The position numbers and the translations under genes are program-made. From positions 1-64,000 of the forward strand of contig JAFYHY010000097.1 in assembly GCA_017538895.1 (NCBI GenBank): a DNA stretch of 64,000 nt, read 5' to 3'. The stretch's first letter is position 1; each line of letters starts with the position of its first letter. Below, in pieces: positions 5,721 to 64,000 of this stretch. The stretch is from Aeriscardovia sp. Lineage in GTDB: Bacteria; Actinomycetota; Actinomycetes; Actinomycetales; Bifidobacteriaceae. The notes beneath the pieces are model-generated. The model worked only from the letters and a program-made list of their open reading frames with translations, ran no database searches and was not told the DNA's origin.

Positions 5721-6889
5721 CAGGATTTACATGGAAATGGCCAATAGCATTAGTACTTGGCGCAGTCCTCACTATTTTGCTCATTCTTTCTGTTCTGTGG
5801 TTAACACGAGCTTCTCGTAGTAAACCAGATCCAGCAAAATTATTGGATCCAGAAGAACGGCAACGAGCTTCAGAATACGCACACAATCATGAGAAACATA
5901 GGTCATCATTCAAACGAGGAAAACGTAATGATACGGAGCCAACTTTATTTGCGTGGAATCTGAAGGATCGTATTACCTCATCCCCTATTTATGCACGATA
6001 CCGTATTTATAAAATTGGTGTTTTAGTAACCAGTGTGCTCTCATGCCTTGCTTTAGCTATTTCAGTCTGCTTGGTAGCTCGTCCAAGCGCTATCGAAAAT
6101 TTAAATGAAACCTCATCATCACGTGATATTGTCTTATGTCTTGATGTTTCTGGTTCTGCTTTACCATTTGATCAACAAGTTATTGCCAGTTACCTTGAAT
6201 TGATACAAAAGTTCAAAACAGAACGTATCGGCATGAGTATTTTTAACTCCACTTCTAAGATGGTTTTCCCATTGACTAATGATTATTCCTTAGTCAAGCA
6301 GGAATTAACTTCCGCGTTAACTGCTTTGGATGGTGTTTCCTCACCAACAAGCATTAATAATATGACTCCAAAACAGTATCAGGAGATTTCCAATTTCTTG
6401 TCTGGCACGGAGGAACGTCCTAACGCAACGAGTTTGATTGGTGATGGTTTGGTCAGTTGTGAAGCAATGTTCCCTGGTTTCTCTGCTTCAGCTCAAACAA
6501 TACAACCTCGTGTCGCGCCAGCATCCATTGTGCTTGCTACTGATAATGTGCTTGCAGGTACACCAATTTATACCCTTCATCAAGCCATGCAGCTCGCAAA
6601 AATGAATTCCATTCGTGTAGATGGTCTCTATACAGGTGATAACGAATCTCTGGATTCCGCAACAACTGCAGAATTCCGTCAACAAGTCCAGTGGGAAGGT
6701 GGAACTTTCTTAACACGACAAAATGGTCAATCAGTTGATGACCTTGTTAAAAGCATTGAGGCTCAAAAGATTACTGAAGCTTCAAAAGAACGTATGGTTA
6801 ATCTCAGTGATCAACCAGATCCATGGATTATTGCACTGGGCATTCTGTTAGCAGCATTCTTTATTATGCTGGGATGGGTGAAGCGATAA
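5717..6889 (+). CDS. VWA-domain membrane protein 1 (BatA-like)
   Basis: A membrane protein of about 390 residues: N-terminal helix (about residues 7-30), a basic cytosolic loop, a second helix (about 97-120), a von Willebrand A domain and a C-terminal helix just before the end. The MIDAS motif is intact as DVSGS, with a later TSLIGDG loop. GTG at 5717, overlapping the previous stop as GTGA, fits the coupling seen along the operon; an in-frame GTG at 5708 is possible. VWA proteins paired with MoxR are candidate substrates or effectors acting at the membrane. Confidence 0.87.
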   Translation: MTGFTWKWPIALVLGAVLTILLILSVLWLTRASRSKPDPAKLLDPEERQRASEYAHNHEKHRSSFKRGKRNDTEPTLFAWNLKDRITSSPIYARYRIYKIGVLVTSVLSCLALAISVCLVARPSAIENLNETSSSRDIVLCLDVSGSALPFDQQVIASYLELIQKFKTERIGMSIFNSTSKMVFPLTNDYSLVKQELTSALTALDGVSSPTSINNMTPKQYQEISNFLSGTEERPNATSLIGDGLVSCEAMFPGFSASAQTIQPRVAPASIVLATDNVLAGTPIYTLHQAMQLAKMNSIRVDGLYTGDNESLDSATTAEFRQQVQWEGGTFLTRQNGQSVDDLVKSIEAQKITEASKERMVNLSDQPDPWIIALGILLAAFFIMLGWVKR

Positions 6890-7914
6890 TGGGATTTGTT
6901 TTTATTCCACTTCTTCATAGCTGGCTTGCCACTATTATCTTTGATGTTATTCTTCTTGGTAGTTTTGTCATTGGACTGTCGCTTTTTATACGAGCACACC
7001 ACAATACTGATGGTAAGCCACTAGATTGGATTCGTCGTGGTATTATCGCTCTTATTACTGTGATTATGAGTTTAGGGCCAACTGTTTTAGTATCTAATTC
7101 AACACAAGCAACCAATGGTACTGATGTCTTTTTCGCTGTTGATATTACTGGATCAATGGCAGTAAAAGATGCTACGTATGGGTCAGATACAAAAATCACT
7201 CGTATTAATGCTGCAAAAGATGCTATTAAAGGTTTGATGTCTATGTATTCAGGGGCTAATTTTGCTGCTGTTAGTTTCGGTGCGTCAGCTGATTTAGCTG
7301 TTCCTCCAACTTCTGATGTCAGTGCTATGAATAATTGGCTGAATGATTTGCAGGTTGAACCAACTGCTGTTTCTAATGGAACACTTTTAAGTGAGCCAGT
7401 GAATACATTATTGACTGCTATGCAAACAGTACATAAAGAGCATCCGAATAATATTATTGTCTTGTACTATATTTCTGATGGTAACGAGACCTCGAAGCAA
7501 ACTTTGCAATCTTTCAGCTCATTACGTCAATTTGTCGATGCAGGTGCTGCCCTAGGTGTTGGTTCTACTGATGGTGGGAAAATACCATATGTCACCGCTA
7601 CGATGATGAACAGTTCAGATTACGGCACAAACTGGATTGTTGATCCAACTACTCATAAAGATGCAATTTCAAAAGAAGATCCTAAAGCTCTTGAACAAAT
7701 TGCAGATCAGTTTGGTGGAACTTCTCTCATGTTGAGCTCCACTTCTACTGTTAAGAAGTTATCTGCAGATACCTCTCACACATATCTTGTACGACAAACA
7801 AAACGAAAGCATATGCAACGGAACATTGCTGTATGGCCGTATGCCATTGTTCTGGTCATTCTCTGCCTATGGGAATTAGGGGTTGATCTCTATCGACAAA
7901 GGAGATTCCAGTGA
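6889..7914 (+). CDS. VWA-domain membrane protein 2 (BatB-like)
   Basis: A membrane protein of 341 residues with two N-terminal helices (about residues 10-30 and 48-66), a VWA domain and a C-terminal helix near 315-335. The MIDAS motif is DITGS, with Thr replacing the first Ser; this should still bind metal. A second metal loop may be SDGNETS. The ATG at 6889 overlaps the preceding stop by one base (TAATG); an extended reading frame upstream would lie inside the previous gene and was not used. It is paired with VWA protein 1, as BatA and BatB are in other bacteria. Confidence 0.87.
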   Translation: MGFVFIPLLHSWLATIIFDVILLGSFVIGLSLFIRAHHNTDGKPLDWIRRGIIALITVIMSLGPTVLVSNSTQATNGTDVFFAVDITGSMAVKDATYGSDTKITRINAAKDAIKGLMSMYSGANFAAVSFGASADLAVPPTSDVSAMNNWLNDLQVEPTAVSNGTLLSEPVNTLLTAMQTVHKEHPNNIIVLYYISDGNETSKQTLQSFSSLRQFVDAGAALGVGSTDGGKIPYVTATMMNSSDYGTNWIVDPTTHKDAISKEDPKALEQIADQFGGTSLMLSSTSTVKKLSADTSHTYLVRQTKRKHMQRNIAVWPYAIVLVILCLWELGVDLYRQRRFQ

Positions 7915-8468
7915 CAAAACACAAACATTCTGTTCGGCGTCTGATTATTGCTCTTGTCTTAGGCGTTGTTTTTCTTGCTGGAGCTGCTATAGCAATTCTG
8001 AACTGGTCTGTCGCACGTTCATATAATGCAACGGCTGCACTTCTTCGCGATGATTTAATTGCTGCTTCAGCAACGAATCCAAATTTTGATTCATTGCAAA
8101 AATCACAATCACAAGTGACGCAACAATTAAAGAGTGAGAGTTCTACTCATTTCATTCAGTTCCCTCGTGTCCGAAAAACTATTGCTCAAGGGCAACGTAT
8201 TAATGATGATCTCAATAAGAATATCGCTCAGATGAAAGCTGCTGCAGATGCACGCTTAAATCAGTTGACGAAGCAGGCAGAAAAGAATAAGCAAAATCAG
8301 TCTCAATCAACTGATACGAAAAATGATGAAGCACAACGTACTGCTGAGTCAAATGATCAATCAAAACTGAATTCCCTTCTAAATGAGAATACCGTGAATA
8401 ATTCATCAACGGCTGACTCAACGACAGCAACGTCTAATTCCAGTTCTAATGCGACGGAACCATGGTGA
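7911..8468 (+). CDS. Small membrane-anchored coiled-coil protein closing the MoxR operon
   Basis: A 185-residue protein with a basic N-terminus, one membrane helix (about residues 12-32), then a charged, Gln/Asn/Lys-rich helical region likely to form a coiled coil (about 85-140), and a Ser/Thr/Asn-rich tail. It starts with GTG at 7911, overlapping the previous stop, with GGAGA ten bases upstream. I believe bifidobacteria carry a similar protein at this place (DUF6466 as I recall, unverified). No catalytic motif is visible. A strong terminator follows within 10 bp. Confidence 0.7.
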   Translation: MTKHKHSVRRLIIALVLGVVFLAGAAIAILNWSVARSYNATAALLRDDLIAASATNPNFDSLQKSQSQVTQQLKSESSTHFIQFPRVRKTIAQGQRINDDLNKNIAQMKAAADARLNQLTKQAEKNKQNQSQSTDTKNDEAQRTAESNDQSKLNSLLNENTVNNSSTADSTTATSNSSSNATEPW

Positions 8469-8475
8469 GTTTGCA

Positions 8476-8540
8476 AGAGTTTTATGTGCAGGAGAAAGAG
8501 TAAATTTCTCCTGCACATAAAACTCTTTAATTTCTTTTTT
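8476..8540 (+). terminator. Terminator of the MoxR/VWA operon
   Basis: Perfect 22-bp stem (8476-8497 with 8505-8526) and a 7-base loop, followed by a T-rich tract. It starts 8 bp after the last operon gene. The length of perfect pairing is unusual for a simple terminator. Confidence 0.85.
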
Positions 8541-8592
8541 AGAGCAATATAAACTAAAAATAAATAATTTAAGTTCTAGTGAAAGTACAAAA

Positions 8593-11055
8593 GTGAAATC
8601 CGCAGAACACCAACAAGAGGATATGCCAACAGTAGATAAAAGCAATACCTCAATTGTGATTCACGATTCAGCTGCTAAGCAAGTCAGAGACTGGAGCGAT
8701 ATCATCAAGCTTGTTTTTTCACTCCTTTTTACTGTCGGGATTCTTTTTGTTGCAGTCTGGTTCCGCAGTACAACTGAAGGTGCTGAACAAGATATGCAGC
8801 ATGCGAGTAATCGGTTCCATTGGCTTGTTCAGCTTCCATTATCATTCTTATTGTCATTAACCTTGATTATTATTGTTGCCATTGTTCTTACACAATTGCT
8901 TCTTGCTCGAATGTGGATTCAATCGGTCGTTGCCACGGTAGGGTTATTTGTTGGTTTTATTGTGTCATCTATCTTTGGTCAAATCATTGTTACGTATTTT
9001 AATGACAAATTAGGTGAAGTGATCACTCAAGCAAGTAACTGGTTTGGTGCAGGACCTTTCGAACTTTTCACGACAATCTTTGCGTTTCTTACGGCAGCAA
9101 ATAATCGTGGTATTCGTTCACGTATTAAATGGTCATGGGAGACATTCTATATACTCTCCTTCATTGTTCTTGCTGCCAATACTATTACGATTACAGGGTT
9201 ATTAGTATCAATTGGTCTTGGATATTGCCTTGGTCTTGCTGTACGTTTCTTAATCGGTTCACCGGGAAGTGGTGTTTGGGGTGAACAGTTAGTATCTGCA
9301 GTACAGTCATCAACTGGTATTTGCTTAACCTCTTTAAAACGTCTTCCAGATGATGAGACGTTTACAACGGAACATTTTGCGAGTGATTGCACTGAATTAA
9401 CTCGTTTGTATGAAGCAACTGATACTGATGGTAGAGAGTTAATTATTGCGGTTAATGACGCGCAACAGCATGCTATTGATTACCTCGTACAGTTATGGAA
9501 AACAATCAAGCTAGAGGGACTCACATTCCATCGGTATCGTTCTGTTCATGATATGACAGAACATCACTTTACTGTTCTCTTGAGGTTGAATCAATTAAAT
9601 CTCGCAACAAATACTCCTATTGCTATTGGAGAAACAACAGAATCTAATTTCTTTATTTATCAGAAACCAGACGCTACTTTTCATCCTGTTCAGTTTGATA
9701 CCTGTACTGATGATCAAATTATTCATTTAATGTCTGACTTAGAAATAGCACATCAGCATGGATTAACACATCGTAATATCATGATGGATTATATCGGTCA
9801 ACGTGATGATCATTCACTGATCTTAACTGGTTGGTCGAATGGTGACGTTATTTCTAATAGTGCGCATGAGCAGATTGATCGCGTGCAATTATTAGCTTTA
9901 TTAAGTGCAGTGATTGGGTTAGACCGTACGATTAAGCTTGCACACCGTGTCATGGATGATAAACAATTATCCTCTATTGCTCCGTATACACAGGCTGTGA
10001 TTATTCCTCTAAGTACTAAGCAGCTACCGCAATGGGATAAACATCTCATTAAAAATTTGCGTACTCGTTTAGCTGGTCTCAGCCAAGCTGAAAACCTTGA
10101 ATCTGCTCAGCCTGTTCAATTATCACGTTTCAGCGTACGACGCTTTATTACAGGATTACTTGTTGTTCTTGCCTTGATTGTTGTGTTTACACAACTTAAT
10201 TTTGACCAAGTTATTAAAGCAGTCCAGAATGCAGATCCATGGTGGGCTTTAGCTGGCTTTGTTATCGGTATTATTTCCTGGGCTGGATCTGGTATTGCAT
10301 TCGGTTCGTTTATTGATAAAGAACAACGCAAAGGACATTATCTTGGTATTCTTGGCACACAGGCTGCTGCTAGCTTCGCTGCTGTTTCCATGCCAGCTCT
10401 CGCAGGGCCAGTTGCTGTCAATATTACCTTCCTACGTAAAATCGGCTACAAGGCTTCTCGAGCTACTGCTATCGCATCTGCTGATATGGTAGCTGAGTTT
10501 ACGACAACCTTCTTAATGTTCATTGTCTTTGGAATTTTCACAGGTCAGAATGCATTACAAAATGTCTTACCTGGGAAAATGGTCATCATTGTTATCGGTA
10601 TTATTGGTGCTGCATGTGCTATTGCTATGCTGATCCCAGCTGTACGTCGTTGGATTCAAAAAACCTTAATTCCTATTCTGCGATCATATGGTCAACAACT
10701 GATTGAGCTCTTTTCTCATCCAAGCACCTTAATTATTTCAATGCTTGGTTCTGTTGGTCAAAATATGACTCTTGCGATGGCATTCTGGTTCTCTTTGATT
10801 GCTTTCGGCTATCATGCTGACTTTATCGAGACAATTTTTCTTTTCCTCCTTGCAAATGCAATCGGACAAGCTGTACCAACTCCTGGCGGTCTTGGTGCTA
10901 TTGAAACAGTTCTTTCAGCAGCATTTATCGGTATCGGTGTACCATCTGCTATTGCTGTTTCTGCTACGCTTCTCTTCCGCGTTGAAACCTACTGGTTACG
11001 TATGGTTCTTGGTGGGTTCTACATGAAATGGATGGAAAAGAAAAAACTACTGTAA
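8593..11055 (+). CDS. Kinase-like domain fused to flippase-like (UPF0104/LPG synthase TM) domain
   Basis: An 820-residue membrane protein in three parts. Residues about 35-240 hold five or six membrane helices. Residues about 250-490 are soluble and look like a worn protein-kinase/aminoglycoside-kinase fold; HGLTHRNIMMD stands where HGDLHxxNxL(x)D catalytic loops occur, but the catalytic Asp is replaced by Thr. Residues about 510-820 contain six or seven helices of the lysylphosphatidylglycerol-synthase membrane region, including PTPGGLGAIE near the end. The aminoacyl-transferase domain of MprF is absent, so lysylation of lipids is not expected. Lipid or polyprenyl flipping is an inference. 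The GTG start at 8593 is tentative; an ATG at 8623 is the alternative. It stands alone between terminators. Confidence 0.75.
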   Translation: MKSAEHQQEDMPTVDKSNTSIVIHDSAAKQVRDWSDIIKLVFSLLFTVGILFVAVWFRSTTEGAEQDMQHASNRFHWLVQLPLSFLLSLTLIIIVAIVLTQLLLARMWIQSVVATVGLFVGFIVSSIFGQIIVTYFNDKLGEVITQASNWFGAGPFELFTTIFAFLTAANNRGIRSRIKWSWETFYILSFIVLAANTITITGLLVSIGLGYCLGLAVRFLIGSPGSGVWGEQLVSAVQSSTGICLTSLKRLPDDETFTTEHFASDCTELTRLYEATDTDGRELIIAVNDAQQHAIDYLVQLWKTIKLEGLTFHRYRSVHDMTEHHFTVLLRLNQLNLATNTPIAIGETTESNFFIYQKPDATFHPVQFDTCTDDQIIHLMSDLEIAHQHGLTHRNIMMDYIGQRDDHSLILTGWSNGDVISNSAHEQIDRVQLLALLSAVIGLDRTIKLAHRVMDDKQLSSIAPYTQAVIIPLSTKQLPQWDKHLIKNLRTRLAGLSQAENLESAQPVQLSRFSVRRFITGLLVVLALIVVFTQLNFDQVIKAVQNADPWWALAGFVIGIISWAGSGIAFGSFIDKEQRKGHYLGILGTQAAASFAAVSMPALAGPVAVNITFLRKIGYKASRATAIASADMVAEFTTTFLMFIVFGIFTGQNALQNVLPGKMVIIVIGIIGAACAIAMLIPAVRRWIQKTLIPILRSYGQQLIELFSHPSTLIISMLGSVGQNMTLAMAFWFSLIAFGYHADFIETIFLFLLANAIGQAVPTPGGLGAIETVLSAAFIGIGVPSAIAVSATLLFRVETYWLRMVLGGFYMKWMEKKKLL

Positions 11056-25046: not shown

Positions 25047-25074
25047 TTCTGTCAGTTAGTTGACACTAACAAAC

Positions 25075-26274
25075 TCACTTGATGATTTCGGTAACACGAC
25101 CAGAACCAACAGTACGTCCGCCTTCACGGATTGCGAAGGTCTGACCCTTTTCAAGAGCAACTGCCTGAAGAAGGTTGACGGTGAAGTTTGCGTGATCGCC
25201 AGGCTGAACCATTTCAACGCCTTCTGGGAGGGAAATGGTACCAGTTACATCAGTGGTACGAATGTAGAACTGTGGACGATAGTTGGTGAAGAATGGAGTG
25301 TGACGTCCGCCTTCATCCTTGGTAAGAACGTAAACTTCTGCCTTGAAGTCGGTGTGTGGGGTGACGCTGCCTGGAAGAGCGAGGACCTGACCACGCTCAA
25401 CCTGATCACGGTTGACACCACGGAGAAGAAGACCAGTGTTATCGCCTGCTTCTGCCTCATCCATCTGCTTGTGGAAGGTTTCGATGGAGGTAACAGTTGT
25501 CTTCTGGGTTGGACGAATACCAACGATCTCGACTTCGGTTCCTGGAGTGATCTTACCGCGCTCAATACGGCCGGTAACAACGGTTCCACGACCGGAGATG
25601 GTGAAGACATCCTCGATTGGCATGAGGAATGGCTTATCAAGATCATGGGTTGGGGTTGGGATGTATTCGTCAACAGCATCCATAAGCTTCTTGACGGATT
25701 CAACCCACTTGTCATGATCCTTGAAGTCATCATGAAGTGCGCCGTATGCAGAAGTCTGGATGATTGGGCAGTCACGATCGAAACCGTTTTCTTCAAGAAG
25801 ATCACGGGTTTCTTCTTCGACAAGCTCGATCATTTCTGGATCGTCAACCATATCGCACTTGTTCAAAGCAACGAGAATACGTGGGACACCGACCTGCTTT
25901 GCAAGAAGAACGTGTTCGCGGGTCTGAGCCATAGGACCATCGTTAGCAGCGACAACAAGAATTGCACCATCCATCTGTGCAGCGCCGGTAATCATGTTCT
26001 TAACATAATCGGCGTGGCCTGGAGCATCGATGTGAGCATAGTGACGCTTATCGGTCTCATACTCAATGTGGGCAATATTGATGGTGATACCACGGGTCTT
26101 CTCTTCTGGAGCAGAATCGATCTGATCGAAATCATACTCTGGGTTGAGATCTGGGTATTCCTCATGCAAAACCTTAGAGATTGCTGCAGTGAGGGTAGTC
26201 TTGCCGTGATCGATGTGGCCGATGGTACCGACGTTTACGTGCGGCTTGGTGCGCTCATATTTGGCCTTTGCCAT
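25075..26274 (-). CDS. tuf: Elongation factor Tu
   Basis: A 399-residue EF-Tu that delivers aminoacyl-tRNA to the ribosome. G1 is [10 protein letters not shown], the switch region holds RGITI, G3 DAPGHADY, G4 NKCDMVDD; domains 2 and 3 are complete through [12 protein letters not shown]. Ribosome site AGGAGG precedes the ATG. It is the last gene of the rpsL-rpsG-fusA-tuf string, 193 bp from fusA, with its own likely promoter in the gap. A 452-residue frame on the opposite strand is only a shadow of this gene. Confidence 0.98.
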
Positions 26275-26379
26275 GTGCAGTCCTCCTGGACAATTAGTAG
26301 ATACTTCCCCATTGGAAGCACTAACTACACTTTATACCTTTATTTTTATTCGTGTACCGACGTGCGGTCATTGGTACTG

Positions 26380-26408
26380 ATTTTACCGATGACCGACGAC
26401 CGATACAA
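26380..26408 (-). promoter_or_regulatory. Probable tuf promoter overlapped by an inverted repeat
   Basis: On the minus strand TTGTAT (26403-26408) and TAAAAT (26380-26385) are 17 bp apart, a good sigma-A pair about 105 bp upstream of tuf. A 12-bp inverted repeat with one mismatch (26365-26376 with 26384-26395) overlaps the -10 box and could be an operator or a leader hairpin. Confidence 0.5.
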
Positions 26409-26467
26409 AAGAAAATAGCACGCTTTAAGTAACTATATTTTTAATATTAGCTACTTAGTTTAGCGAA

Positions 26468-59022: not shown

Positions 59023-60009
59023 TTAATGTTGACGACGTGACAAAATCGAGTCAACATTCATTCCCAAAGACTCATCTGATGGTTCGGGAATATCAACTGA
59101 TTTCAGAGAGACAATACTTGGAGTAACGTCTTCAAAGATAGCTTGACGTTCAGCTGGTGATACTGGCTTTGCTTTTGCAACGCTACGGTACGACTTAATT
59201 TCCATGCTTTGTGGATAGTCTGCATCGTTATGTTGATCACCTAGTGAAAATGAAACAAGGTTTGATGCAGTAGCTTGCTTGAGCGATTTCTTTTGTTCGT
59301 TTCCACGACGGTTTACTGGAGTATCCTTCTTTACAGATTTTCTCTTTACTTGCTTAGAAGGAGTAGTAATACCCTGTTTCTTAAGAACAGCGCGAACATC
59401 ACTTACTGGGATGATATATGTTGGCGCATTATCCTCAGCGGGTGTATTCACTGCATTTTTCTTATCTGCTAAAGCTTTAGATTGAAGTGCAGATTTCTTT
59501 AATGGTGTGGTTAACCCTTTAGGATGATCAACTGAATGAGATGAAGATGGCAGGTTGGACGTGCGAGAGTTAAGATCTTGTTCCCATGCATGTGCTACTT
59601 GTGATGCACGGAAACCTAATCCTAAGACAATTGCTACAAAGCATAATGGAATAAGTGTATATAAAACACTGAACTGTAATATAAAGCTTAAAATAGCAAC
59701 AACCGCTGTTACAACAAGCAAAGAAATAACTAAGATCTGACGACGTTTAATAGCTGCACGCCGCAAAGCACGAGCACGATTAATTTGTTGTTGTGTTAGC
59801 TTCTTCTTTGGTGCTGGCTGTTCTGTCTGCTTTCCTTTTGTCTCACGTTCCACTGGTTCAGCCTCAATTTTTACTATATGCATTAATCCTTGATCGTTTT
59901 TATTCCTCTTTTTATCAATCGAGGATCGCATCCACCATGGCACAACTCCTACCAGTAACATTGCCACAATAATAACAAAACACAATGCACTGACAGAACT
60001 ATAACCCAT
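59023..60009 (-). CDS. SepX/GlpR-like membrane protein (putative divisome-associated)
   Basis: A 328-residue protein: N-terminal helix (about residues 6-24) followed by VPWWMRS, a charged cytosolic loop, a basic RARALRRAAIKRR stretch, two further helices (about 92-132) and a long hydrophilic, Lys/Ser-rich tail (about 140-328). This layout resembles SepX of Streptomyces and the GlpR receptor of Corynebacterium, which work with the Glp (MoeA-like) protein at the division site. The neighbours fmdB and mscL are also found near sepX in actinobacteria, which supports the call. The long tail is more than I expect for the family. Sequence similarity is short, so the call is tentative. Confidence 0.55.
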   Translation of the reverse strand: MGYSSVSALCFVIIVAMLLVGVVPWWMRSSIDKKRNKNDQGLMHIVKIEAEPVERETKGKQTEQPAPKKKLTQQQINRARALRRAAIKRRQILVISLLVVTAVVAILSFILQFSVLYTLIPLCFVAIVLGLGFRASQVAHAWEQDLNSRTSNLPSSSHSVDHPKGLTTPLKKSALQSKALADKKNAVNTPAEDNAPTYIIPVSDVRAVLKKQGITTPSKQVKRKSVKKDTPVNRRGNEQKKSLKQATASNLVSFSLGDQHNDADYPQSMEIKSYRSVAKAKPVSPAERQAIFEDVTPSIVSLKSVDIPEPSDESLGMNVDSILSRRQH

Positions 60010-61216: not shown

Positions 61217-61273
61217 AGAATAGGTAAAGAAGGGGGAAGTACCATTGGTACTTCCCCCTTCTTTACCTATTCT
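61217..61273. terminator. Bidirectional terminator with 27-bp perfect stem
   Basis: Arms 61217-61243 and 61247-61273 pair perfectly over 27 bp with an ATT loop; CCCCCTTCTTT occurs on both strands. It separates the convergent mscL and 68-residue-protein genes, and its right arm covers the last codons and stop of the latter. Confidence 0.85.
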
Positions 61274-61469
61274 TCTCTAAATCAAAGGTACCCCAATGCG
61301 GCGGTAGTTCACGCAGAATGTATTCATCCTCTTTCTTTTCTGTATCAACTTCACGATCCCATTGCGGACTATAATCACCTTCAACAGTAAATCGTTCAGT
61401 TCCCTGACGAACAACACGGCGATGCTGTTTTCTTTTTGGTGAGTCCTGACTCTTATTATCTGTTGCCAT
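61263..61469 (-). CDS. Small conserved-looking basic protein of unknown function
   Basis: A 68-residue hydrophilic protein: Lys/Arg-rich N-terminus (PKRKQHRRVVRQ), then an acidic middle and an ending with ELPPHWGTFDL. No membrane helix or Cys pair. It begins 12 bp after the stop of the helicase-like gene on the same strand with GAAGG upstream (GGAATTT region), so the two are probably co-transcribed. I do not recognise the family; the PPHWG ending gives an impression of conservation. Its stop codon is inside the terminator stem. Confidence 0.6.
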   Translation of the reverse strand: MATDNKSQDSPKRKQHRRVVRQGTERFTVEGDYSPQWDREVDTEKKEDEYILRELPPHWGTFDLEKNR

Positions 61470-61481
61470 TAAATTCCTTCT

Positions 61482-64000
61482 CTATGATTCCGCAAAAAAT
61501 TGGCGTAGTCCCGGAGTCTGATTGCTTGATATCTCCTCTTTCGCTTGTGATGGAGCCTCAGTATGAGATGAGATCTGAGAGAGAATTCGATCAATTTCCT
61601 TTTCAGGGTCAACGAACAAGCCAACTGACCATACATGCGCTGCATACCATCCAGCTTTTGCTAGATTCATTGGTAAGAAACGATGACGTGTTCGTAATGA
61701 TGGAATACTCATGAAGTATGCATCATCAGTGAAAACAGTCAAATTATAGCTATGCTGCGCGGTACCAACAGCAAGAGGAAGTTTTCTTCCTTCGGTATAC
61801 CCGTAATTTAACGCTGTTGTATAACCACGATTTTGTAATCGCATAGCAAGATCCGTGAGCAACTCTCCCCGAGCTCCAGAGTGAGCGACGAGTGGAACAG
61901 GCGCATTGGTTAACTGTTCAGCCCATTGTAAAAGATCGCGAAGAAGTCGAGATCCTGCATGAACAAGACGTTGATCTTCTAAATCATGTGATGTAAAACC
62001 AGCAACAATACTGCAATTACCTTTAGCAAGAGCTAACGCATTGAGTAGCAGCTTATCACCCTCATTAGTATCAATAATGCCAAACTGTTGGAGAAGCTTA
62101 CCATGAACTGTTTTAGCAAAGCTTGTGGAAAGAATTAAATCCCCAGCTGGCATACCAGCAACATTTGAAATATCTGCGACACATACTTGAGGAAGCAAAG
62201 AAGCTACTTGTGTGTTACGAACAGCAAGATGGTTCAAAGCCTCTGATATCTGCGCAGCATGTGAACGTGTCAATGTCACTACTGACAAATGATATGTTGA
62301 CGGTACTCTATATTGGCCGAAACTCTCCGCACGTTTCTTAATCAGATTCAGAACCAGTGCCACTTCATCGCTTGTTGTATCAACTAATCCTGATCCACGC
62401 ATTGGTACACCTTTAGCATCAATATGGTGGAAATGAGCATGAAGATTCAACAAGTTACTTGGTGGGAGTGATTCAGTCTGATACCCATGCTGTTCTAAGA
62501 ATTGTGTGAGATACGCGTTGGTTGGTGCTAAATCACGTGGAATATTAATATTCTGTAAATAGCGTGAAGCTGCATCGATAATTGGCGAAGAAATAAAGTT
62601 TTTATCGGCAATAATCACAGAGATTGGTGCATAAGATAAAACACTAAGAACTTCTGCGCTTGGTGCATGAGAGCATGCATCAACGATAACAACATCAGCC
62701 AGCCGTTCATTACTAAATGACGCAGCTAAGTTAGCTGGAGATCCAATCAAAATTGGTTTAGCCGCATGAATCAATTCTGGGTGCTCACGTAGCAGAGCTG
62801 ACAATGATGGAGCCACGTCACCTGATAATTGTGTATGTAACTGGTTTGCTTCTTGCGAGTGCGAATAGAGTGCTTCTGCAAGTCGCTTTGACAGTTCTTT
62901 GGTGAGTAATGGTCCTATTGAACGGATATGTTCAAGGTCGAGTTCAACGAATCGTTCTGTGGTGTTGGCGAGGAGTTCTCCATCTTGGTTGGCGATCATT
63001 TGTGATGAGCGCACGATGAGTTCGAAAACTGTTGTCCACCATGCTAGTCGTAATTCGTCAGGAGCGTTTTCTGATCGGATGTGGCGTGCGGAAAGATCGT
63101 TGATTAATGGTGTTAAACCGATTTTTTTGAATTCTCGTTCGAGTCGTGCTCGTGCTGGAAGGTTTTCTAATGCTTTTTTATCGTCGTGTAAGCGTTGTAG
63201 ACGATCAGTGAGCATCTCGAAGGCTGCTCCTGAGAGTCCTGGTCCTTCTGGCGTGGTAGCAAGTACTGAATCAAGGGCGGTGATGTCGCTCATGACTGAT
63301 TCGAAGGTTTCAATGATTTGGTCTAGTTGGTCTGGAAGTGTTGGCCATCCATCGAGTGATGACATGGATTTCCAGATTTTAGCGTCGCGTCGTACGATGA
63401 TGAGTGCGCTATGGAGGTCTTCAACGTGTTGTCCTGGTCGGATGAGTGAGCGGATTTCTTTGATGTAGCGGCGTCGTTCCCAATATCCCATGTCGATGTG
63501 GACGTCTTCGCGTGCTTCTTTTGTCATGGTGGCATCAAGCATTGCTGTGATGTCGCGGCTGAAGATTTCAGGTTTAAAGACATCGAGTGTACGGCGCAGA
63601 TTTTGGAGTACTGAGACTTGGCGACCCCATTCTTCGATGGTAATTGGGGTTGGGAATCCACATTTTTCTTCAGTGCTGGTGATTTGCTGTTGGATTTTTG
63701 GTAGTGAGACATCTAGCAAGCGTGTAACGCGTTGATAAGTGTCTTTTGCATCTTCATCCGTAAAAATAGAAGCGCTGTACCATGGTGTATCGCCTGGTTC
63801 AACAGTAAATTCGCCTAGTTCTCCTGCTTCAATGAGTTTTTTGCTCCAGTCATCTAAATGATCTTTGAGAGCGCGTGCTGTTTGTGAGCCGAGACGGATA
63901 CGGTTACTTGGGTGTGTTGGTAGTGCAGCAATGCTAGCCAGTTCTTCGATTGTTTGGTAGGCGGATACACCCCATGGTTGTGCAATGGCGTGAAGATCAC
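61482..64000 (-). CDS. Large SF1-helicase-like protein with nuclease-derived C-terminus (5' part outside window)
   Basis: The frame is open from the window edge to 61482, about 839 residues, all C-terminal to an unseen start; the internal TTG near 63719 is not the start. The second RecA-like half is visible but worn: VVIVDACSHAPSAEVLS takes the place of Walker B plus motif III of UPF1/DUF4011-type helicases, with DEAS changed to DACS, and LLLNALALAKGNCSIVAGF stands where the VALTRAR motif VI would be, with its Arg missing. The last 110 residues follow the layout of the REase_MTES_1575 (Vsr-like) domain (AMRLQNRGYTTAL...KAGWYAAHVWSVGLFVDPEKEIDRIL), but the Asp and ExK-type acids look lost. It may be a structural relic or a DNA-binding protein. 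Mosaic codon use occurs at about 62.88-63.72 kb. Confidence 0.65.
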   Translation of the reverse strand, partial: DLHAIAQPWGVSAYQTIEELASIAALPTHPSNRIRLGSQTARALKDHLDDWSKKLIEAGELGEFTVEPGDTPWYSASIFTDEDAKDTYQRVTRLLDVSLPKIQQQITSTEEKCGFPTPITIEEWGRQVSVLQNLRRTLDVFKPEIFSRDITAMLDATMTKEAREDVHIDMGYWERRRYIKEIRSLIRPGQHVEDLHSALIIVRRDAKIWKSMSSLDGWPTLPDQLDQIIETFESVMSDITALDSVLATTPEGPGLSGAAFEMLTDRLQRLHDDKKALENLPARARLEREFKKIGLTPLINDLSARHIRSENAPDELRLAWWTTVFELIVRSSQMIANQDGELLANTTERFVELDLEHIRSIGPLLTKELSKRLAEALYSHSQEANQLHTQLSGDVAPSLSALLREHPELIHAAKPILIGSPANLAASFSNERLADVVIVDACSHAPSAEVLSVLSYAPISVIIADKNFISSPIIDAASRYLQNINIPRDLAPTNAYLTQFLEQHGYQTESLPPSNLLNLHAHFHHIDAKGVPMRGSGLVDTTSDEVALVLNLIKKRAESFGQYRVPSTYHLSVVTLTRSHAAQISEALNHLAVRNTQVASLLPQVCVADISNVAGMPAGDLILSTSFAKTVHGKLLQQFGIIDTNEGDKLLLNALALAKGNCSIVAGFTSHDLEDQRLVHAGSRLLRDLLQWAEQLTNAPVPLVAHSGARGELLTDLAMRLQNRGYTTALNYGYTEGRKLPLAVGTAQHSYNLTVFTDDAYFMSIPSLRTRHRFLPMNLAKAGWYAAHVWSVGLFVDPEKEIDRILSQISSHTEAPSQAKEEISSNQTPGLRQFFAES

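Follow-up and report, generated by a model that had tools for sequence, protein, structure and literature searches.

A core gene of Actinomycetales resembling a helicase-nuclease appears to have lost both active sites in the bifidobacterial lineage while keeping a small PPHW partner

We analyzed a 64,000-nucleotide stretch of Aeriscardovia sp. DNA (contig JAFYHY010000097.1, positions 1 to 64,000, assembly GCA_017538895.1), called the window here, and in particular a large gene at its end which resembles a helicase joined to a nuclease. We consider it probable that the product of this gene is a pseudoenzyme, an ancient helicase-nuclease that has become a non-catalytic platform acting with a small partner protein, perhaps regulated by phosphorylation in bifidobacteria. 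At the sequence level this reading draws on the loss of catalytic motifs, the predicted fold, purifying selection, linkage to and fusions with the partner, and linkage to a gene for an FHA protein. The large open reading frame (ORF) is listed as open from 61482 to 63998 on the reverse strand, where it reaches the window edge. Beyond the window, on the 166,125-base contig, the complete gene occupies positions 61482-65231 (reverse strand), starts with GTG and encodes 1249 residues. Its closest named relatives, at 65 and 66% identity, come from two Aeriscardovia metagenome-assembled genomes; the values for the other two genomes in the source genus are also 65 and 66%. The parts of the gene are:

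61482..64000, reverse strand: putative pseudo-helicase/pseudo-nuclease gene, window portion corresponding to residues 412-1249; the complete gene ends outside the window
62847..63995, reverse strand: helical insert, residues 413-795, from conservation in 14 family rows and the fold model
61887..62846, reverse strand: remaining superfamily 1 (SF1) helicase core, residues 796-1115, from the fold model; motifs III and VI lost
contig 64275-64313, reverse strand, outside the window: lost Walker A, residues 307-319, from the alignment
62670..62681, reverse strand: Walker B equivalent DACS (versus DEAS), residues 851-854, from the alignment
61554..61976, reverse strand: Vsr/MTES_1575-like nuclease-fold domain lacking the catalytic residues, folded stretch residues 1086-1226, from Pfam and the model
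61764..61781, reverse strand: LPLAVG where the nuclease Asp strand IDLAVG is expected, Asp to Pro at site 1152, from the alignment
61680..61730, reverse strand: family-conserved replacement signature of the nuclease-like domain, T-D-D-x2-F-M-x3-S-x-R-x-R-(H/Y)-R, from the alignment

The whole-length fold was read from an orthologue, L116, and of the window's own gene the C-terminal domain was folded. The L116 model (residues 30-1228, built with a 50-row alignment of named loci) has a mean predicted local distance difference test score (pLDDT) of 87.2 and shows an SF1 fold with two RecA-like domains. Its core matches the Upf1-type helicases UPF1, Ighmbp2, Dna2 and Sen1 with Z scores of 16-18 over approximately 400-490 residues. 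Among these are UPF1 2wjv (Z 18.4, 430 residues, root-mean-square deviation 6.9), Ighmbp2 4b3g (Z 18.2, 424 residues, 4.8) and Dna2 5ean (Z 17.6, 494 residues, 6.2).

In alignments that include intact orthologues, the window protein reads DASANMESAH at the site of the Walker A motif GxxxxGK[ST]. The P-loop pattern [AG]xxxxGK[ST] is present at this site in none of 145 family rows (221 rows in total), a count in which near-copies are treated separately; on these grounds we rejected the idea that the N-terminal half conceals a P-loop which is still intact. The stretch is freely variable within the family, with DASANMESA, DLPGGRNSA, DGTQDTDTA and EQTGRHSAD as examples. Instead of the Walker B DE the window protein has IVDACS; among 80 named family loci the Asp is kept in all, and the Glu is replaced by Ala in 70 and Ser in 10. 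Motif III reads ADKNFIS versus GDERQLP, and motif VI reads ALALAKGNC versus VAVTRARSR in the intact orthologue L109; both the GDxxQ of motif III and the motif VI arginine are lost in the seven family rows shown. Judged from these alignments, the motifs for ATP binding and hydrolysis (Walker A, Walker B, III and VI) are gone in the window lineage. A preliminary description, made from the window sequence, had left open that the unseen N-terminal half might carry intact helicase motifs; none were found there.

The C-terminal domain of the window protein, modelled alone, reached a pLDDT of 82.2 and has a Vsr-type restriction-endonuclease-like fold, with matches to NGO0050 (Z 10.5), I-Bth0305I (Z 10.1) and Vsr 1cw0 (Z 8.2). 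Two chains of the T. gondii mitoribosome are also among its structure matches (Z 9.2 and 8.1), and Foldseek alone gave no match with an E-value below 0.001 for this domain. The window protein scores 32.5 bits against Pfam PF18741 (MTES_1575), below the cut-off of 38.2, and its order-mates L076 and L082 clear this cut-off with 45.7 and 47.4 bits. The models thus bear out the preliminary description in that the second helicase half and the Vsr-like domain keep their layout. Two positions of this domain, an Asp and a Glu, we take to be catalytic. In alignments with intact orthologues, LPLAV stands for IDLAV and VFTDD for VEADG; in all 80 named family loci the Asp is replaced by Pro and the Glu by Thr. 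Since the same replacements occur in all of these loci, the active-site losses are, as far as the alignment can tell, fixed in the family rows examined, and the replacement residues are themselves conserved. The substitutions reported previously (DACS for DEAS, LPLAV for a metal-binding DLxV, and the missing ExK, whose Glu is Thr) are therefore real in alignments with intact orthologues.

A homologue of the large gene was identified in 181 of 189 family genomes (159 of 161 good ones) and, accepting any homologue at an E-value of 1e-3, in 295 of 297 genomes of the order sample (292 of 294 good ones). In genus g13 it is kept in six of seven genomes, those six being 0.8-0.9 Mb in size; one of the six, G177, carries just a fragment of it where a contig ends. 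Eight of the 189 family genomes gave no match, among them G153 and G178, both of which are nearly complete. Intact Walker A and B motifs are missing in 56 of 57 orthologues in a first aligned set, and in 79 of 88 after under-sampled families were added. The nine which keep them all belong to f4 and part of f16. These nine have G[AP]PGTGK[ST], DEAS, a motif VI of the form T/S-R-A/S-R/K and a GD motif III, which reads GDERLLQ in L225 and GDxxQ in the other eight. They also keep the nuclease Asp, and eight keep the nuclease Glu, which is Asp in L225. The preliminary description had regarded full-length homologues as active-looking; this holds for the minority of nine and fails for the other 79 of 88 rows.

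One of the intact orthologues, L109, passes the Pfam cut-offs of DUF4011 (26.9 versus 22.2 bits), AAA_11, AAA_12 and MTES_1575. The window protein itself has no DUF4011 (PF13195) or AAA match in Pfam up to an E-value of 1. The suggested relation to DUF4011 and MTES_1575 is accordingly not visible in the window protein's own Pfam matches, one absent and one below cut-off, yet the ancestry is supported because L109 passes those cut-offs. The nine intact orthologues likely represent the ancestral state, to judge from their motifs. Intermediate forms occur as well: L103, L099 and L107 (f5, f6 and f18) keep TRAR in motif VI and have Gln, Ala or Gly in place of the Walker Lys, and the Walker A sites of L223, L249 and L220 read GPPGTGLTHT, GPPGTGHTQT and TPPGTGASQT.

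A tree rooted on three longer, apparently defence-type homologues unites 69 dead rows, including the window protein, on a single branch (support 100); next to it stands a group of nine active and six dead rows. The rooted tree requires at least four state changes, and an earlier tree lacking an outgroup requires two. If activity was never regained, we read the rooted tree as suggesting five losses: L283, three f37 rows, the 69-row group, L220 and five f16 rows. From 93 rows, the earlier tree omitted L241, L248, L110, L078 and L101 (short or near-copies); the rooted tree also omitted L053, L054, L055 and L247 (long branches), and eight rows were added. As read from these rows, the dead form is common to most orthologues examined in the order and not special to the window gene. 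Separately, the same class contains homologues of 1690-2159 residues with intact helicase motifs, apparently of a defence type (L287, L288 and L289). One of them, L288, combines an intact helicase with an odd nuclease part, AVLLDSPAWAA.

Selection on the gene is purifying. Close pairs (dN <0.05, dS >0.05) were drawn from all pairs of the 80 named loci; the 34 found, of which 14 are independent, have ratios of nonsynonymous to synonymous substitution rates (dN/dS) of 0.018-0.125, with a median of 0.043. The pair of two Aeriscardovia sequences has a dN/dS of 0.10. All five domains are constrained, with pooled ratios of nonsynonymous to synonymous differences (pN/pS) of 0.055-0.080 in close pairs, and none of the five was found to be relaxed. 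In a broader collection of 866 pairs, dS is saturated in many; the domain medians there were 0.27-0.37 and individual domain values reached 1.13. We did not rely on these figures, since dS probably comes out too low for distant pairs rich in GC. The check for relaxed selection raised in the preliminary description thus returned strong purifying selection instead, and its remark that a long frame is kept open in the absence of catalytic residues extends to the whole gene of 1249 residues, with a reading frame open in most genomes listed. In 14 family rows the insert is the best conserved part (mean identity 53.0% versus 40.9% for the helicase core), and the order is reversed in the nine active rows (45.1% versus 56.7%). 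The ratio of insert to core identity is 1.30 in the window family, 1.15 in f5, 1.13 in f19 and 1.11 in dead f16.

Directly downstream of the large gene, the window contains the small partner and a stem-loop:

61263..61469, reverse strand: 68-residue partner protein with a basic N-terminal arm RKQHRRVVR and a C-terminus, ILRELPPHWG, that is conserved; other lineages have it joined to the large protein
61222..61268, no strand: strong stem-loop of 20 pairs between the partner gene and a convergent mscL, probable operon end

A T-rich stretch follows the stem-loop. The window's own partner matches no Pfam family. Of 196 distinct homologues, 159 have a PPHW-type partner encoded downstream and another 20 carry it fused as their very C-terminus, in active and dead forms alike; identical proteins were counted once, and the truncated pieces L052 and L056-L062 and the defence-type L287-L289 were omitted from the count. 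The PPHW pattern was found in the first 650 downstream bases of 153 of 177 loci, in the next 650 bases of 2 of 177 and in the reverse complement of 9 of 177; upstream stretches gave 0 of 173 and shuffles 6 of 885. These controls rule out a chance linkage of the 68-residue ORF, and the link to the large gene noted in the preliminary description is thereby established as conserved synteny and natural fusion. Fusions were seen in active L216-L218 and in dead f5, f9, f12 and f17, the deep f1 rows L053 and L054 and one Bifidobacterium reuteri locus. In the latter (L171, Bifidobacterium reuteri DSM 23975, 5890-9792) the fused protein ends in GELPPHWAVFNDKR; most other Bifidobacterium loci have two genes.

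The bifidobacterial partner has an arginine-rich arm, RRxHRRVVRxGTExF, and ends in DDxRILxELPPHWGxF; in genomes of about 0.8-0.9 Mb (L039, L043-L045 and L052) the end is kept as LPPHF. The orthologous group as we define it, an Actinomycetales core helicase-like gene, comprises genes with a PPHW partner downstream or fused and a shared neighbourhood, both of which the window gene has. Since the pairing spans the loss of catalysis, what is still under selection probably depends on both the body and the tail.

Directly upstream of the large gene, outside the window, lies a gene for a 475-residue protein with FHA and LRV_2 domains, followed by genes which, recognising their sequences, we take to be rplL and rplJ. 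The FHA protein was matched at all 80 named Bifidobacteriaceae loci, and in 78 of them it passes a strict test (same strand, upstream, at most 2500 bases away). Six residues of its phosphothreonine site, presumably those responsible for phosphothreonine binding, show no variation across the 65 loci in which they are readable. Other neighbours at the 80 loci are rplJ (74), fmdB (78), groES (69) and mscL (15); an mscL-like cluster was present at 27 of 47 loci in a neighbourhood count whose clusters were named by eye from example sequences.

The nearly complete genome G153 (genus g7, 99% complete) has no large gene, its best partner match has an E-value of 0.48, and its best FHA match has an E-value of 8.8e-4 over 88 residues. 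Large gene, partner and FHA gene thus seem, from these searches, to have been lost together in G153, leaving a weak FHA match. The partner profile used (A4) found the partner in G000, G183, G154 and G058 and missed known ones in G208 and G203. It also gave no hit in G178, which lacks the large gene, but the profile was built without the divergent g13 form; the weak FHA and LRV_2 matches of G178 are like those of G177. Because A4 misses known partners and the matches of G177 and G178 are alike, we claim joint loss for G153 only. An FHA gene (PRL2012_1613) and a SAF-domain gene (PRL2012_1610) of B. breve, which may or may not come from the same locus, are reported as co-culture-responsive (PMC11418510).

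Two further observations concern the window itself. At 59023-60009 (reverse strand) lies a gene for a 328-residue protein that looks membrane-anchored and has no Pfam family above cut-off; 68 of the 80 named Bifidobacteriaceae loci have it nearby. Elsewhere, the ORFs at 25060-26418 (forward strand, 452 residues) and 25075-26274 (reverse strand, 399 residues) overlap antiparallel, and at most one of them is likely a gene.

These findings suggest the following mechanism. The ancestor would have been an SF1 helicase of the Upf1/Dna2 kind with a Vsr-type nuclease at its C-terminus, accompanied by a small protein ending in an [L/I]xxxxPPHW(G)-like sequence, and its intact form would survive in one part of the order. 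The window lineage would have lost the ATPase motifs and the nuclease site, but its body would still be folded, and the helical insert, the partner and a good part of the locus would have been kept. The body would now most likely be a non-catalytic platform holding nucleic acid or a protein complex. The PPHW tail of the partner may dock on this body, and its arginine-rich arm may contact nucleic acid or another partner. In Bifidobacteriaceae the FHA protein encoded upstream could recruit or regulate the complex via phosphothreonine. Here we infer several steps from the sequences, namely the actual absence of activity, the docking of the tail, binding to nucleic acid or a ribonucleoprotein, and phospho-regulation. 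The non-enzymatic role proposed in the preliminary description gains support in this conditional sense, and its newness must be widened to the dead form found in most orthologues examined. More tentatively, the whole could amount to a near-universal core helicase-nuclease of most families sampled in the order, which lost catalysis early and several times elsewhere, docks the PPHW tail of a microprotein and gained a phosphothreonine reader in bifidobacteria. If so, it would be a new cellular machine, a phospho-regulated non-catalytic SF1 platform on nucleic acid, transcription or the ribosome.

An unlikely alternative is that the large protein is a phage-defence protein like ProA, Hhe or PDC-S37 which no longer catalyses and serves defence as a sensor, decoy or regulator. 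Its best library matches are indeed defence families: ProA (NF058533) and Hhe (NF042953) in NCBIfam with 147.6 and 43.4 bits, and PADLOC PDC-S37 with 159.5 bits (no cut-off given); the intact orthologue L109 reaches 804 for ProA and 837 for PDC-S37. However, the NCBIfam scores of the window protein are far below the anti-phage equivalog cut-offs of 1500 (ProA) and 2000 bits (Hhe), and plain membership in the ProA, Hhe and PDC-S37 families was rejected on the scores. The longer, apparently defence-type homologues are separate, some of them in the same genomes (G192, G477 and G502). The gene is nearly universal and has a conserved neighbourhood, unlike patchy defence islands, and we favour a housekeeping role over defence because of the neighbouring rplJ, fmdB, groES and mscL.

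It is quite unlikely that the large protein is still an enzyme which uses unusual residues, with a variant P-loop binding ATP and another acid holding the metal, and which unwinds or cuts weakly. Such an enzyme would account for the first Asp of Walker B being retained in every named row, for the conservation of D1169, R1180, R1182 and W1195 (87, 78, 77 and 87 of 87 rows), and for the strong nuclease-domain signature of f1's own, TDDxxFM...SxRxRHR. It is harder to reconcile with a P-loop stretch that varies freely and retains its pattern in none of the 145 family rows, and with the additional loss of the motif VI arginine and motif III GDxxQ in the rows shown. A decaying relic on its way to being lost is very improbable: the lost catalytic residues and the eight family genomes lacking a match would fit it, but the frame is mostly open, the gene is retained across families of the order and in genomes of 0.8-0.9 Mb, and the low dN/dS led us to reject a dying gene.

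Several points weigh against the platform reading. Eight of the eleven other dead families have a ratio of insert to core identity of 0.81-0.97, so inactivation does not generally shift constraint from core to insert; in f5, f19 and dead f16 the shift is weak. The RecA1 part is constrained like the insert in close pairs (pooled pN/pS 0.055 each), which would also suit a protein that is still an enzyme and could mean that a ligand is still bound there. The dead state is itself read from sequence, and the order-wide count includes homologues of any kind at its threshold. The trees are quick ones, with support from the SH-aLRT (Shimodaira-Hasegawa-like approximate likelihood ratio test) only, uneven letter composition, a root on three outgroup rows and some deep forks unsettled. 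Within the limited flanks available, the FHA gene is beside the large gene in none of 40 order-mate loci, nor in the deep rows L053-L057, so it cannot belong to the core mechanism. Finally, the partner was not seen in 17 of the 196 rows, seven of which lie near the end of the examined DNA. Five of the 17 have a partner elsewhere: L040, L047 and L051 in other genome pieces (L058-L060), and L285 and L286 at another place in the locus, where an ORF has a matching end.

A single order here contains both intact and dead versions of a core gene, all with one kind of partner, and the question of what a helicase does without ATP or nuclease chemistry can therefore be put directly. The case also carries a warning for annotation, in that homology would label such a gene a helicase or a phage-defence gene although it stands among housekeeping genes and appears to have lost its active sites.

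No paper on this large bifidobacterial gene was found in the open-access literature, where pseudohelicases seem to be rarely described. Two examples, Utp25 and Deinococcus PriA, presumably belong to other helicase families. Like the window protein they are helicase relatives, and they appear as pseudohelicases in the titles of the respective papers (PMC9539457, PMC4504706); the excerpts of these descriptions mention neither a nuclease-like domain nor a small fused partner. Unlike UPF1, Ighmbp2, Dna2 and Sen1, the window protein lacks the ATPase motifs, contains a helical insert of about 380 residues and carries its nuclease-like domain at the C-terminus. It is homologous to ProA, Hhe and PDC-S37 in its C-terminal helicase and nuclease-like parts; those families are modelled over 1550-1911 positions, whereas the window protein, encoded by a core gene and accompanied by a small partner, has no active site left intact. 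The L109 type (DUF4011-SF1 helicase-REase_MTES_1575) can be aligned over the whole length, is of similar size and has a small PPHW partner; all four Pfam domains pass in L109, whereas the window protein lacks Walker A and B, motifs III and VI and the nuclease residues. In Pseudomonas aeruginosa a large core DUF4011 gene is reported to flank the defence hotspot cDHS1 beside a conserved small hypothetical gene (PMC10250203). The likeness to the window gene is one of description, a core gene with a small neighbour, and it hints that such pairs may be housekeeping elsewhere.

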